Translations under genes and position numbers: made by a program
The notes under the pieces: model-generated
What the model saw: only the letters and a program-made list of their open reading frames with translations
What the model was told of the DNA's origin: nothing
Databases searched by the model: none
Source of the DNA: Candidatus Puniceispirillum sp.
GTDB lineage: Bacteria > Pseudomonadota > Alphaproteobacteria > Puniceispirillales > Puniceispirillaceae
Direction of reading: 5' to 3'
Assembly (NCBI GenBank): GCA_016778895.1
Contig: JADHOR010000007.1
Span: 1 to 64,000, forward strand
Length of the DNA: 64,000 nucleotides
In this document: one piece after another, positions 17,173 through 58,528 of the stretch
How positions within the stretch are numbered: the stretch's first letter is position 1
Layout: the number at the start of each line of letters is the position of its first letter

Positions 17173-17796
17173 CTAGCTTAGCAGCGCTGGTAAAAGGCTG
17201 GCGATCAACAGACCCGCCATGATGATGTTGAAACCGCGTAGCCGTGCTGGGGTGCCCAGAAACCGACCAATCACGATTCCAAATAATGTCCATGTGCAGG
17301 TTGATCCGATGGTTGTGATCGCAAAGACAATGAACATCACCAAAACCTCGTTTGCCAGATCGGACGCGCTGCTGGTATAGGCGGTGACTGACGAGATGAT
17401 AACGGTGATGCCTTTCGGGTTAACCAGTTGAAACATAGCGGCCTGCCAGAACCGCAAGGGCCGGTCCCGCTGCCGATTCTCGGCGCGGCCGGCGCTGGCA
17501 ATTTTCCATGCGAGAGAGATCAGGAAAATAATGCTGATAATCTTTAGAATTTCATAAAGCGCCGGAAATTTATTAAATAATCCGGCAAGCCCAAAGCCGG
17601 CGGCGAGAAGCAGCAGGATAAAGCCGATAAAGACGCCAAAAATATGTGGCAAGCTGGCGCGAAAGCCAAAATTTGCACCAGATGCGGCCAGCATCACATT
17701 ATTCGGCCCGGGGGTAAAAGCGGTGACAAAGGCGAATAGCGTAAATGACAGGGCGGTCGATAAATCCATTACGCTCGCATTCAGATCAGAGCTCAA
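17173..17796 (-). CDS. LysE family translocator
   Basis: FTLFAFVTAFTPGPNNVMLAASGANFGFRASLPHIFGV LysE/RhtB signature. Confidence 0.85.
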   Translation of the reverse strand: MSSDLNASVMDLSTALSFTLFAFVTAFTPGPNNVMLAASGANFGFRASLPHIFGVFIGFILLLLAAGFGLAGLFNKFPALYEILKIISIIFLISLAWKIASAGRAENRQRDRPLRFWQAAMFQLVNPKGITVIISSVTAYTSSASDLANEVLVMFIVFAITTIGSTCTWTLFGIVIGRFLGTPARLRGFNIIMAGLLIASLLPALLS

Positions 17797-17808: not shown

Positions 17809-18835
17809 TTATTGCCGTAACCGTGCGACCTCATTAAGGCAAAGCCGTGATGAAATGGCAAGGCCGGAGGCGGTGCAGTTTCCCGAAATGCCGCAAGTGC
17901 AAGGTATTTCACCAGTGGGCCGCGCATCACCCGATATAGACTCTGCGGTAATCACCGCGGTTTCAGTACGCAAGCCTGGCGCAGTGACTATGCGGGGGCG
18001 CATAGTTTTTTGTCATATCAGGGCCAATGCTGTCACTATGCAGACGCAAACGGGCGCGACCATCAACGGTAACTGGCGTGATGTTTGGCCATAAATTCAC
18101 GCCGTTTTTGCGGAATTGCTGTTGCATTTGGTCCGATGCACGAGGGGCGGCGCTAGCGTTGCGGAAAGTGCTAAGGTCAACAATAAAAACGGTTTTTGCC
18201 GATTTTGCGCGGATCGGTGATCACGGTTGTTCCCGTCTTAAATGTCGATTCAGGCGTAATAACGCCGTTTTGCTGCTTTACGGCAATCTTTGCTGGTGGA
18301 ATGGGTTTTGCCAAGGTTTGCATTATCGCAGAACTGTGGCGTTGTGCTGATAAACCGGCCTGTCGATAGGATTTTGCGCATTTTTTGCCAATGATTTGCG
18401 CAGTTGTGGCGTAAGGATCGGTGCCTGGATCAAACCGGGGCTTATTGCCAATATCAGCGCCATGTTCTGATCTGTTTTGGGTAACCGCCAGGCGTCCCAG
18501 CAGCCAGACGCTATACTGGCTAAGGATCAGATCCATATCATGCGGGTCGATACCTTGCCGCTCATTGAGAATCGCCAGCGATCGTAACCGATCAGCGGCA
18601 AAGCCCAAGCGGTTAAATCATTTTTTGCAGCTTTGGGATAAAGCTCGATCTGTAGCTCCCTAACCTTGGCAAAGGCGGCGCAAATTGTCGCATTTTCGGC
18701 TGCCTTGACCGGTGTGTCTTGCGGCGATGCCGGTTGGGCTGCGGCTGCAACCGGCAAGATAACGGTAAAACAAGCAATTAGTATTCTACGACAAATATAA
18801 GGCACCCTGCCTCCTCCAGCGCAGTGGTCGATCAT
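17809..18835 (-). pseudogene. frameshifted secreted hypothetical protein (three frame changes)
   Basis: Consecutive same-strand ORF pieces (18527-18835, 18177-18608, unannotated frame ~18003-18193, 17809-18003) join into one ~340-aa protein after 1-bp homopolymer corrections near 18615-18617, 18193-18197 and 17994-17998. Confidence 0.65.
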
Positions 18836-18969
18836 GAGGATAGGTTAGAAATATCTAATATTTCGGCAGTATAGGGGGCGTTTAGAATTGAAGCAGCGCT
18901 TATTTAACCGCATATGGTGAAGCCAGACGGGAGGAAGCCAGACGGGATCATGACTTCGTGCCGCCAGTT

Positions 18970-20466
18970 CTAGCGGGTAAAACGTAATGCCTCGCCCGCT
19001 GCCCGAATTAGGGCGCGCGCTTTGTTTCGGGTTTCTTCATATTCAGAGTCGGGATCACTGTCATAGACGATACCCGCGCCAGCCTGAACATACATTTTCT
19101 GGTCCTTTACCACAGCAGTTCGAAGCGCGATACAGGTATCAAGATCACCCGCGACTGAAATATAACCAATTGCGCCAGAATAGGCGCCTCGACGATCAGG
19201 CTCTAATTCATCAATCAATTCCATCGCACGGATCTTTGGCGCACCGGAAACAGTACCAGCAGGAAAACCGGCAATCAGCGCATCAATCGCATCCAGATCA
19301 TCGCGGATTTTGCCCTCAACCTGCGAGGCGATATGCATTACATGGCTATAATATTCGACGTCATAGTTTGATTTGACCCGCACCGTTCCGGGTTTTGAAA
19401 CACGGCCAACGTCATTACGACCAAGGTCAAGCAACATCAGATGTTCGGCGCGTTCTTTAATATCGGCCATCAGATCAGCCGCGTTTGCTGCATCTTCATC
19501 GGGCGTCTCGCCACGTTTTCTGGTACCCGCCACCGGCCTGATGGTAACATCCTTGCCGCGAAGCCGAACCAGAATTTCAGGGCTGGAACCGACAATCGCC
19601 ATTTTCCCAAAATCGAAATGAAACAGAAATGGCGAGGGGTTCAATCGCCTGAGTGATCGGTACAGATTGATCGATGGCAGGTGGAATGGAATGCTGAACC
19701 GTTGCGACAGCACAATCTGGAAAACGTCGCCGGCACGGATATAATCTTTTGCTTTGGCAACCATGTCCAAAAAGGCCGATTTTTCCATGTTGGTGTCGGG
19801 CTCGGGAAGCGGGGTGTTTGCATCGCCGATTTCAGTATGAGGCAATGGCTTATCCAGATCATCAATTGCCGCATCCAGCCGCGCCACTGTGTCATCCCAC
19901 GCCGTCTTGGCGCTATCCCACTCATCGGGGCGAATCTGCGTCACTAGGGTGATGCTATCCTTTAACCGGTCGAAAATGGCAATCAATGATGGCCGTAACA
20001 ACAGCGAGTCATCCATTTCGACTGCGGTTTTATTCACATTCGGGATGGCCTCGATAAGCCGGATCATATCGTAACCGAAATAGCCGAATAACCCCGCGGC
20101 CATCGGTGGCAGATCGCCGGTATCTGGCATTTCAGACTGGCTCATCAAATGCCGGAGCGAGTCCAGCGGGGCCCGCGTTTCTGCGGCAAAACCACGATCA
20201 TCTTGCGGTGTTCGGTTAATTTCGGCGCGCCCGTCACGACATCGCCAGATCAGATCGGGGGTCAGGCCGATCACAGAGAACCGTCCGCGAACTTCACCGC
20301 CCTCAACCGACTCGAGCAGGAAACAATGTGGCTTGTCAGCGGCAAGCTTCAGATATGCTGAAACGGGGGTCTGTGTATCGGCAACAAGAACCCGATGCAC
20401 CAGCTGGCGGTTGCCGGCGTTGAAACGGGCAGCAAACCGGTCGAAATTTTCACCGCTGGCGAGCAT
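18970..20466 (-). CDS. trpE: anthranilate synthase component I
   Basis: DVFQIVLSQRFSIPF...PSPFLFHFDFG...GTRKRGETPDEDAANAADLMADIKERAEHLMLLDLGRNDVGRVS. Confidence 0.95.
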   Translation of the reverse strand: MLASGENFDRFAARFNAGNRQLVHRVLVADTQTPVSAYLKLAADKPHCFLLESVEGGEVRGRFSVIGLTPDLIWRCRDGRAEINRTPQDDRGFAAETRAPLDSLRHLMSQSEMPDTGDLPPMAAGLFGYFGYDMIRLIEAIPNVNKTAVEMDDSLLLRPSLIAIFDRLKDSITLVTQIRPDEWDSAKTAWDDTVARLDAAIDDLDKPLPHTEIGDANTPLPEPDTNMEKSAFLDMVAKAKDYIRAGDVFQIVLSQRFSIPFHLPSINLYRSLRRLNPSPFLFHFDFGKMAIVGSSPEILVRLRGKDVTIRPVAGTRKRGETPDEDAANAADLMADIKERAEHLMLLDLGRNDVGRVSKPGTVRVKSNYDVEYYSHVMHIASQVEGKIRDDLDAIDALIAGFPAGTVSGAPKIRAMELIDELEPDRRGAYSGAIGYISVAGDLDTCIALRTAVVKDQKMYVQAGAGIVYDSDPDSEYEETRNKARALIRAAGEALRFTR

Positions 20467-49786: not shown

Positions 49787-51916
49787 CTAGCCAGAGGCCA
49801 AAAACTTTACCGCGCTATCGCGCTCAAAAAGGCTAAGCAGCAAATTCATATGCGGCTGGTCATTATTGTCTAATGCGCGGCTAGCTTCGGCTCTTGCGAT
49901 GCCTAGCAGGTCACGATGCACCGCTAGGTCAGCCAGCACAAATTCCGGCATTCCAGATTGTCGTTGTCCCAGAAACTCGCCCGGACCGCGTAATTCCAAA
50001 TCCTCTTCGGCAATCAAGAAACCGTCATTCGTGTCTCGCATAACGGCAAGGCGTTTTGACGCTGTGTCGCTCAATGGGCCCTGATAGATCAAAAGACAGC
50101 TGCTTTGCTGGCTGCTTCGCCCCACACGGCCGCGCAATTGGTGCAATTGGGCAAGGCCAAACCTTTCGGCATGTTCGATAATGATGATGCTGGCTTGGGG
50201 AACATCCACCCCAACCTCGACAACAGTGGTTGCGACCAGTAATTGAGCTGTGCCATCACGAAATGCCTGCATCGCGTGATCGCGTTCGCCAGCTTTCATT
50301 TTGCCATGTGCCAGCTGAACCGTGACACCGGGCAACGCCCGCACCAAGGCGGCGAAACGGTCTTCAGCTGCGGCAATATCTAATTTGTCCGACTCCTCGA
50401 CAAGTGGGCAAATCCAATAGGCGCGCTTGCCATCGCCAAGAGCGCGCCCGAGGTTGGATATCACATCGCCAAGCCGGTCAGACGGCAGTACACGCGTATC
50501 AATGGGCAGGCGGCCAACTGGCTTTTCGTCGATGCGCGAATGATCAAGGTCACCATAGGCAGTCATTGCAAGGCTACGCGGAATTGGTGTTGCGGTCATC
50601 ACCATTACATCGACATGCGCGCCCTTTTCGCCGAGCAGAATGCGCTGGCGCACACCAAAGCGGTGCTGCTCGTCAACCACGGCGAGACCAAGGTCATGAA
50701 AGGCAACCGTTTCCGATAAAAGCGCGTGCGTGCCAACCACCAGTGGCAAACTGCCATCGGCAAGCCGTGTCAGCGTTTCCTTGCGGCTAAGAGTGCGGGC
50801 AGTTCCATTCGCCGTCCCATTTTCACGCGCCGTTCCAGTGCCGCGGCCTTGGCCCAATAACAGCCCTATTTCAATGCCAAGCGGTGCCAGCATGGCCTGA
50901 ATACTGGAATGATGCTGACGTGCGAGAACTTCGGTCGGTGCCAGCAACGCCGCCTGCACTCCGGCTTCCATCGTGGTGAGCATCGCCCATAGCGCAACAA
51001 GCGTCTTGCCCGATCCCACATCCCCCTGAAGCATGCGAAGCATACGCTTCGGCTTGGCCTGATCGGCGGTAATTTCCGCAATGGCGCGGCGTTGTGCGCC
51101 GGTCATTTCATACGGCAGGCTGGCTAACAGCTGGTTTGTAATGTGACCATTGCCGCAATAGGCGCGCCCCGGCGTTGTCTCGGCGGCGCTGTGCCGTACC
51201 ATCATCATGGCAAGCTGGTTTGCCAGTAACTCATCAAAGGCAAGGCGCGCGCGTGCCGGGCTGTTGGGCAAAAGGTCAGACGCATTTTTTGGCGCGTGAG
51301 CAATGCGCATTGCCGTGGCAAAATCGGGCCAGCCATGCTGCTTAACGAGTGCAGGGGGGATCCATTCAGGCAAATCTGGAATGCGGGTCAGCGCATCATC
51401 AATTGTCCGGCGAAGAATTTTGGGCGTCAGGCCAGCGGTTAAGGGATAGACCGGCTCGAAGACAGGCATTTTATCTGCCTGCGTTGGGGCAAGAATATGA
51501 TCGGGGTGCGCCATCTGCACACGGCCTTGAAATAATTCGACACGGCCACTTACAAGGCGGCGCTCGCCAACGGGCAATTGTTTGGCGACATAGTCATCAT
51601 GTGCATGGAAAAAAACCAGTTCCAGTGCGCCAGTTTCATTCTCACAAAAAACCCGGTAAGGACGCCGTACGCCGCGGGGCGGGCGGTCATGCTTTACCAC
51701 CAGAACGTCAAAGGTCGCGACACTGCCATCGGTTACGTCAGCGAGGGCGGGGCGCTGGCTGCGGTCAACCAGGCCGACAGGTAAATGCCGTAAAACGTCG
51801 ATAACGTAATGCCCCACACGCTTTTCCAGCACTGACGCCAGCTTTGCGCCAACGCCAGAAAGACTGGTTGTGGCGGCAAAAAGCTGAAAAATTTCAGGTG
51901 GACGCTTTGGATGCAC
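49787..51916 (-). CDS. recG: ATP-dependent DNA helicase RecG
   Basis: MLQGDVGSGKTLVALWAML...VVDEQHRFGVRQR...VMTATPIPRSLAMTAYGDLDHSRIDEKPVGR. Confidence 0.96.
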   Translation of the reverse strand: MHPKRPPEIFQLFAATTSLSGVGAKLASVLEKRVGHYVIDVLRHLPVGLVDRSQRPALADVTDGSVATFDVLVVKHDRPPRGVRRPYRVFCENETGALELVFFHAHDDYVAKQLPVGERRLVSGRVELFQGRVQMAHPDHILAPTQADKMPVFEPVYPLTAGLTPKILRRTIDDALTRIPDLPEWIPPALVKQHGWPDFATAMRIAHAPKNASDLLPNSPARARLAFDELLANQLAMMMVRHSAAETTPGRAYCGNGHITNQLLASLPYEMTGAQRRAIAEITADQAKPKRMLRMLQGDVGSGKTLVALWAMLTTMEAGVQAALLAPTEVLARQHHSSIQAMLAPLGIEIGLLLGQGRGTGTARENGTANGTARTLSRKETLTRLADGSLPLVVGTHALLSETVAFHDLGLAVVDEQHRFGVRQRILLGEKGAHVDVMVMTATPIPRSLAMTAYGDLDHSRIDEKPVGRLPIDTRVLPSDRLGDVISNLGRALGDGKRAYWICPLVEESDKLDIAAAEDRFAALVRALPGVTVQLAHGKMKAGERDHAMQAFRDGTAQLLVATTVVEVGVDVPQASIIIIEHAERFGLAQLHQLRGRVGRSSQQSSCLLIYQGPLSDTASKRLAVMRDTNDGFLIAEEDLELRGPGEFLGQRQSGMPEFVLADLAVHRDLLGIARAEASRALDNNDQPHMNLLLSLFERDSAVKFLASG

Positions 51917-52082
51917 TGCGCTGTTCTCCTGTTAAAACGGTGTATGATCAAAACTGGCAATCAGTTAAATGACATCGCGCCGCCACGCTTGTCTCTAGGC
52001 ATTATCGCTCATATCTGTTATCCCATGCCAGCCATTTGTTGCCCCGATCAAAACGCGCAACGGGTTGAAAAGGAATTCTACC

Positions 52083-52370
52083 ATGTCAGCATCACCCAAT
52101 TCACCAGTCCAGCCTGATCTCTCAAACCGTGTTCGGCGGCTAATCTATCAGGCGAGCTATACAGGCATGAAGGAAACTGACCTGCTGCTTGGACATTTTG
52201 CCAAGATGCATTTGCCGCATCTAGGTGAGGCTGATTTGACCAATTTTGAAAATCTACTGGCGGCGGGTGATCCGGCAATCTATGCGTGGGTAATGGGCAA
52301 TGCACCGTTGCCAGACGAATTTGACACACCAGTTTTTCATTTAATTAAAGAGTTTAAAAAAGAACAATAA
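52083..52370 (+). CDS. sdhE: succinate dehydrogenase assembly factor SdhE (DUF339)
   Basis: VRRLIYQASYTGMKETDLLLGHFAKMHLPHLGEADLTNFENLL; between recG and mfd. Confidence 0.9.
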   Translation: MSASPNSPVQPDLSNRVRRLIYQASYTGMKETDLLLGHFAKMHLPHLGEADLTNFENLLAAGDPAIYAWVMGNAPLPDEFDTPVFHLIKEFKKEQ

Positions 52371-57347: not shown

Positions 57348-58013
57348 GTGGTGGATGAGGGCCAGCTGCCCACTTTTTGGAGTTTTCGGCGTTGCCCCTA
57401 TGCGATGCGGGCGCGCCTTGCGATCGCGGCAAGCGGGGAGGTGGTTCGTCTGCGTGAGATTTTGCTTCGGAACAAACCAGAGGCGTTTCTCTCGGCATCT
57501 CCCAAAGGCACAGTACCGGTATTAGTGCTTGCGGATGGAACAGTCATTGATGAAAGCCGTGATGTCATGTTTTGGGTGCTTGGCCGCAACGATCCAGACG
57601 GCTGGCTAACGATCTGGCGGCAAGATCCGCAGAGGGTCACAGCATTTCTTGATCGGCTGGATGGTCCGTTTAAAGATGACCTCGATCGGTATAAATATGC
57701 CAGCCGCTATGCTGGTGCCGATGCAAAGGCGCATCAGGCCAGCGGTGCCGGATTTCTGCATGAATTGGACAAGGCGCTGGAACAGACAGGTGCGCTGTCG
57801 GGGACAAATCTGGGAATTCTGGATTTTGCCAGCCTGCCGTTTGTCCGCCAATTTCGAATAGCCAACCCGGATTGGTTTGATGCCCAGCCATGGCCGCATC
57901 TTTCTGTATGGCTTCAGGCATTTTTAGACTCAGCAAGGTTTCAGCAAATCATGGAAAAATATCCGCAATGGAACGAGGGCGCATCGCCAATAATTTTTCC
58001 AACACCGGGCTGA
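57348..58013 (+). CDS. glutathione S-transferase-like protein
   Basis: FWSFRRCPYAMRARLAIAASGEVVRLREILLRNKPEAFLSASPKGTVPVLVLADGTVIDESRDVMFW; GTG start. Confidence 0.85.
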   Translation: MVDEGQLPTFWSFRRCPYAMRARLAIAASGEVVRLREILLRNKPEAFLSASPKGTVPVLVLADGTVIDESRDVMFWVLGRNDPDGWLTIWRQDPQRVTAFLDRLDGPFKDDLDRYKYASRYAGADAKAHQASGAGFLHELDKALEQTGALSGTNLGILDFASLPFVRQFRIANPDWFDAQPWPHLSVWLQAFLDSARFQQIMEKYPQWNEGASPIIFPTPG

Positions 58014-58261
58014 AAATTCAGACTTTGTTCAAGCAGTATGCCGATGTTTGTGACGCTGGTAGTGTGCGGTTTTGCCGCTTTAGCATTGATTAGGCATTTA
58101 ATCATTGTATTGATGGTTTGACGCTGGTTGATATACGTCAGCTGAAGCCAAAAAAACGTTAAAGTTATATTGGCGGTCAATTAATGGCGGCGTCTTAGCA
58201 GCAGTCTGGCACAAAATTTGCGTCTATTGGTGGCTTCAGCAAACCATGGGAGGTAGGCGTT

Positions 58262-58528
58262 ATGGCACCAAAATTGGACTCGGACTTAATTGTTGATGTA
58301 ATTGAGGCAACCATCCGCGTATTGATTGAAACTGGCCTCAGCAGGGAGGAGGCGTTGCAGGTAATGCTTAGTCAGGTCGCTTCGCAAGTGTCGCCTGAGG
58401 TGATGAAAATCGCCACCGATCTGAACCAAAAATATCATCAGGATTTCTGTTATGCTGAATGGGATGAGGTAGCATCAAAACAGGACAAACCGGTAGGCTC
58501 GGCAGAATTTGCCTTTGGCCCGCTCTAG
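58262..58528 (+). CDS. hypothetical small protein
   Basis: 88 aa; gggaggt SD-like motif just upstream; no family recognised. Confidence 0.6.
   Translation: MAPKLDSDLIVDVIEATIRVLIETGLSREEALQVMLSQVASQVSPEVMKIATDLNQKYHQDFCYAEWDEVASKQDKPVGSAEFAFGPL

Follow-up and report, generated by a model that had tools for sequence, protein, structure and literature searches.

A very probable pseudogene of a secreted SPOR-domain protein between trpE and lysE in a SAR116 bacterium

At the division septum, SPOR domains (Pfam accession PF05036) bind glycan strands whose stem peptides have been removed, and every SPOR protein known so far has a role in division or morphogenesis (PMC6895207). The protein family examined here resembles RlpA, DamX, DedD, and FtsN in that its intact members carry an N-terminal export signal and end in a SPOR domain preceded by a low-complexity linker. 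Unlike RlpA, the intact family has no lytic transglycosylase (DPBB) domain, and unlike FtsN, it has no cytoplasmic part or transmembrane anchor. It further differs from known SPOR proteins by a conserved, SAR116-specific N-terminal domain and by the broken state of the copy that is the subject of this study. SAR116, and its low-GC subclade in particular, has been presented as a model of genome streamlining (PMC8547437). As in SAR116 gene erosion, full deletion is the end state in several lineages at the present locus; in contrast to low-GC streamlining, the sequence analyzed here is of approximately 50% GC, and decay was caught at intermediate stages. In the literature searched, neither a description of decay of a SPOR gene between trpE and lysE nor a mention of SPOR domains together with SAR116 was found.

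The analyzed stretch of DNA, hereafter the window, covers 64,000 nucleotides of a SAR116 (Puniceispirillales) genome. Between trpE and a LysE-type exporter gene, its minus strand contains no intact ORF. Instead, protein-like pieces in different frames follow one another with no other gene between them, and these pieces jointly match one intact gene in relatives. The initial annotation had described a minus-strand frame that begins with a signal peptide and is split into pieces, and the comparison with relatives bears this out as one broken secreted protein. We are confident that it is a genuine, fairly recent pseudogene of a secreted, accessory SPOR-domain protein, decayed under relaxed constraint. 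The features of the locus are as follows.

17173..17796, minus strand: LysE-type exporter gene, intact, downstream neighbor marking the locus (PF01810)
17809..17951, minus strand: intergenic stretch (the G004 stop codon aligns at 17952-17954)
17952..18805, minus strand: very probable pseudogene of the SPOR-protein gene between trpE and lysE (codon alignment to the 303-aa orthologue of G004)
17952..18205, minus strand: remains of the C-terminal SPOR-like domain (family profile match at 18005-18229)
17988..17990, minus strand: TAG replacing a nearly invariant Trp codon of the family (alignments)
18006..18011, minus strand: third frame break, a run of 6 A against 7 in G004 (codon alignment)
18221..18223, minus strand: TGA in the homologous frame, where G004 has CAA (codon alignment)
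18238..18243 (about), minus strand: second frame break, a single additional base in the linker, ambiguous as to its exact position (codon alignment)
18345..18805, minus strand: what is left of the signal peptide and of the SAR116-specific N-terminal domain, limits approximate (family profile matches)
18618..18620, minus strand: TGA at a Trp codon that all 19 intact family members share (alignments)
18621..18626, minus strand: first frame break, an A-run one base shorter than the homologous codons (codon alignment)
18806..18890, minus strand: conserved 5' flank (TTCAATTCTAAACGCCCCCTATACTGCC...) with ribosome-binding site GGAGGAGG, still present (comparison with relatives)
18970..20466, minus strand: trpE, intact, upstream neighbor marking the locus (PF00425/PF04715)

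Lesions were defined by a codon alignment of the window copy with the intact gene of G004, a related one-contig genome. Three single-base frame breaks and three in-frame nonsense codons were identified, where each frame break is followed by a nearby nonsense codon in the homologous frame. The pseudogene starts at a GTG (18803-18805) and ends at a TGA (17952-17954) that is homologous to the stop codon of G004. Its N-terminal part was matched by the family profile at 18620-18799 and 18219-18635 in one search, and at 18623-18799 and 18294-18614 in another. The initial annotation had proposed three homopolymer indels, the right kind of lesion for two of the three frame breaks, which lie in runs of six A; two of its sites, however, were wrong. 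The first had been placed roughly correctly, in or beside the A-run at 18621-18626; however, correcting one homopolymer there is not enough to recover the ancestral reading, because a TGA replaces the invariant Trp codon right after it. At the sites given for the second (18193-18197) and the third (17994-17998), the window and the intact orthologue align gap-free. The actual second break is located at about 18238-18243 and is followed by the TGA at 18221-18223, and the third is a missing base in 18006-18011, followed by the TAG at 17988-17990. A fourth piece ("RIVTAPGLRTETAVI...") that had been joined to the product is out of frame and mostly intergenic; the gene ends at the conserved stop codon, and its product would be about 285 aa long rather than the approximately 340 aa first estimated.

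Both flanks of the pseudogene include conserved sequence. The block at 18806-18890 (TTCAATTCTAAACGCCCCCTATACTGCC...) is nearly identical in the window genome (G000), G004, G003, G007, and G012, and it is possibly a promoter or the end of the trpE transcript. The same block is cut after TTCAATTCTAAACG by a deletion in G010. On the other side, positions 17820-17880 before lysE (CTTGCCATTTCATCACGGCTTTGCCTTAATGA) are non-coding yet conserved with G004, possibly as a control region of lysE.

The middle piece served as query against 60 related genomes, and the nearest copy was identified in G004, where a single intact ORF of 303 aa occupies the same locus and shares 65% identity over the middle piece. 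Weaker intact matches were found in G003 and G007. A search with the family profile added an open frame of 350 aa in G002, as well as longer open frames, mostly of 340-544 aa, in other genera. Intact orthologues were thus found at the same position between trpE and lysE in these four genus mates, and many members of other genera encode intact copies with trpE directly upstream. Another family of the order also has members of this gene family, including two (L100 and L101) with trpE adjacent. In intact relatives the gene is a single ORF, and none of the shifts or stops of the window copy was present in any intact orthologue. The search for an intact full-length homologue, which the initial annotation had set as a check, therefore returned intact copies at the same locus, and these syntenic homologues support its suggestion of a recent pseudogene. 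Two further candidates were rejected: an ABC-transporter binding protein (L007), the sole result of a scan of the genome's own contigs, was a chance match through the common peptide EHGADIGNNP, and at a weak match in G022 (L006) the opposite strand carries an overlapping gene for an unrelated membrane protein.

The domain layout of the intact family was derived from an alignment of 19 members. It comprises a signal-peptide-like segment, a conserved N-terminal domain, a variable linker, and a C-terminal SPOR domain (PF05036). The N-terminal domain spans approximately 130 residues with the consensus AEQGAICAxFAxLMExQ...LWxERRK...C...QAD, which includes two invariant Cys residues. No match to this domain was found in Pfam, NCBIfam, or the PDB, and among 289 Alphaproteobacteria searched across the class it occurred only in the window's own family. 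The linker is almost missing in some members and forms a long coiled coil or a Pro/Ala-rich stretch in others.

The C-terminal domain follows the consensus FVAQLGxF...A...RLxT...LCxxLW...C, and its assignment to SPOR varied in strength among members. Of ten members scanned, L034 (27.8 bits), L025 (22.8 bits), and L033 (22.2 bits) scored above the PF05036 cut-off of 21; L014, L015, L029, and L030 scored 15.9-18.4 bits, under the cut-off; and three had no SPOR match listed in Pfam. The short genus-level copies L002, L003, and L004 had no SPOR match in Pfam, and they are linked to SPOR only through the family alignment. The family profile aligned with L039, a PF05036 protein of the window genome, over 85 columns (hhalign 96%, E 3e-9), compared with 1.6% when the three short genus-level copies were aligned alone. 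Profile searches of the PDB yielded nothing significant, with the SPOR entry of CwlC (1x60) only at E 0.41. A single-sequence fold of the SPOR piece of the window alone gave an E-H-E-E order at low confidence (pLDDT 47), where a SPOR fold would run beta-alpha-beta-beta-alpha-beta. The third piece also matched Pyr_redox weakly, at E 0.006 and under that family's cut-off, which was taken as chance. Since a signal peptide is combined with a C-terminal domain of a kind that binds septal denuded glycan, the intact protein is most likely a periplasmic binder of septal peptidoglycan, or an adaptor, as predicted by analogy with known SPOR proteins.

Alternatively, the gene could be uninterrupted in the living cell, with the breaks stemming from sequencing or assembly errors concentrated at this locus, as the initial annotation had also allowed. 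Runs of six A, where two of the three frame breaks are located, are typical places for indel errors. In contrast, the three nonsense codons arose by substitution, one near each frame break, and other changes are of a kind that points to decay. For example, G004, G003, and G007 agree at 123 residues, and 24 of these were changed in the window copy, including M65R, D167G, and L259P. This corresponds to 20% of invariant residues, as opposed to 1-4% in the neighbors TrpE (3 of 287) and LysE (6 of 142). Three of the changed residues (M65, W79, and D167) are invariant in all 19 aligned family members. Differences from G004 were spread over the codon positions, with 53/41/78 at positions 1/2/3 in the pseudogene compared to 17/10/73% in other genes; the third-position share was hence 0.45 in the pseudogene and 0.73 in the other genes. 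Such a substitution pattern is not of the kind that sequencing errors make.

The rest of the window also argues against error. Approximately 57 other ORFs are common to G004 and the window, and none was internally frameshifted; those wholly inside the window were covered at essentially full length. Two single-base gaps in bona fide genes were both at extreme ORF ends. The only other ORF not spanned was one of 89 aa (G004 319564-319833), which is probably not a gene, because it overlaps an opposite-strand ORF of the window and its differences are mostly at second positions. One stop was counted in a 431-aa gene and was taken to lie within a 5' extension, because the window has an intact 400-aa ORF there. 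Sequencing error is accordingly unlikely as the cause of the breaks, and an intact gene in the living cell was judged very improbable.

Under the favored reading as a pseudogene, the sequence comparison indicates that selection on this gene is relaxed relative to neighboring genes. The dN/dS ratio against G004 was 0.37, compared to 0.06 for trpE of the same genome pair and 0.21 between the intact copies of G003 and G007. Values for lysE involving G004 were excluded from this comparison, as that sequence had been cut incorrectly. Because 0.37 is below 1, either the gene was still under constraint for some of the time after the lineages of the window genome and G004 split, or the decay is recent. 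With the 5' flank and ribosome-binding site also still conserved, the loss looks recent relative to that split.

Two other observations concern the window and G004. The adjoining genes at 49790-52367 (G004:C1:282025-284608) are 98% identical in DNA, when most of the window is 84-96% identical, which suggests recent recombination or very strong constraint. In addition, two genes that adjoin each other in the window (about 58010-58262) are separated in G004 by a 521-aa ORF (C1:274671-276236), of which tblastn found no counterpart in the window.

Another reading takes the pieces as separate small genes, of which at least one is retained and functional, for example as an exported N-terminal fragment. 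The N-terminal ORF at 18527-18835, which retains a start codon, a ribosome-binding site, and a signal peptide, would be the natural candidate. However, the gene of intact relatives is a single ORF, the positions at which the fragments end are not conserved, and the locus is entirely deleted in related genomes, leaving this reading with a very slight chance. Programmed frameshifting or stop readthrough in a functional gene was rejected as practically negligible in probability: the pieces are still long and recognizable behind a conserved 5' flank and ribosome-binding site, but expression would take three shifts in differing directions, or stop readthrough in addition, no intact orthologue has any such shift or stop, and family-invariant residues have been lost.

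Beyond the window genome, the trpE-lysE junction in its family (f1) includes intact, nonsense-only, frameshifted, remnant, and deleted states. For example, in the G012 copy, which has two TAA codons, neither of the N-terminal Cys residues nor the invariant Trp remains, and the part of the gene present has no frameshifts. In G066, five nonsense codons were found relative to an intact relative of 90% identity (G022), and the differences amounted to 35/35/36 by codon position. The G067 copy has many stops and indels, only short remnants persist in G026 and G035, and G010 shows one clean deletion. No trace of the gene was detectable at the junction in the clade of G009, G006, G013, and G014, in G011 and G016, or in nine of nine testable genomes of the genus g7, where several of these absences rest on incomplete MAGs. 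At least ten independent losses were placed on a TrpE tree of 48 genomes, and this holds with weak nodes collapsed, although the count of about ten is an estimate, as TrpE alone is a modest marker and many of the genomes are incomplete MAGs. Most other genera of the family keep the gene. The window copy is one recent loss among these.

The window genome encodes two other SPOR proteins, a bitopic FtsN-like protein (L039, G000:C42) and an RlpA-type lytic transglycosylase (L038, G000:C27). They share their C-terminal domain with the intact family, and L039 also has the same pattern of a C-terminal Cys pair. Since both are intact on other contigs, SPOR function has not been lost from the cell, and their retention may explain why the loss is tolerated. 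In the proposed course of events, the ancestral gene would have encoded a secreted periplasmic protein with a signal peptide, the SAR116-specific N-terminal domain, a variable linker, and a C-terminal SPOR domain. By analogy, this protein would dock at the division septum and help or tune septal wall processing. It would be accessory, given the retained RlpA-type and FtsN-like proteins and the repeated independent losses in the family, and the window copy would have decayed through frameshifts, nonsense codons, and missense changes under relaxed constraint. A more speculative and rather doubtful extension is that loss was selectively favored and not just tolerated, for example through altered cell separation or phage exploitation; if true, it would account for ten or more parallel losses when most other genera keep the gene.

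A stretch of suspicious frameshifts has thus become a well-supported pseudogene, and an uncharacterized SAR116-specific family of SPOR proteins has been brought to light. The locus provides a compact natural series for measuring the loss of an accessory cell-division gene in abundant marine bacteria.
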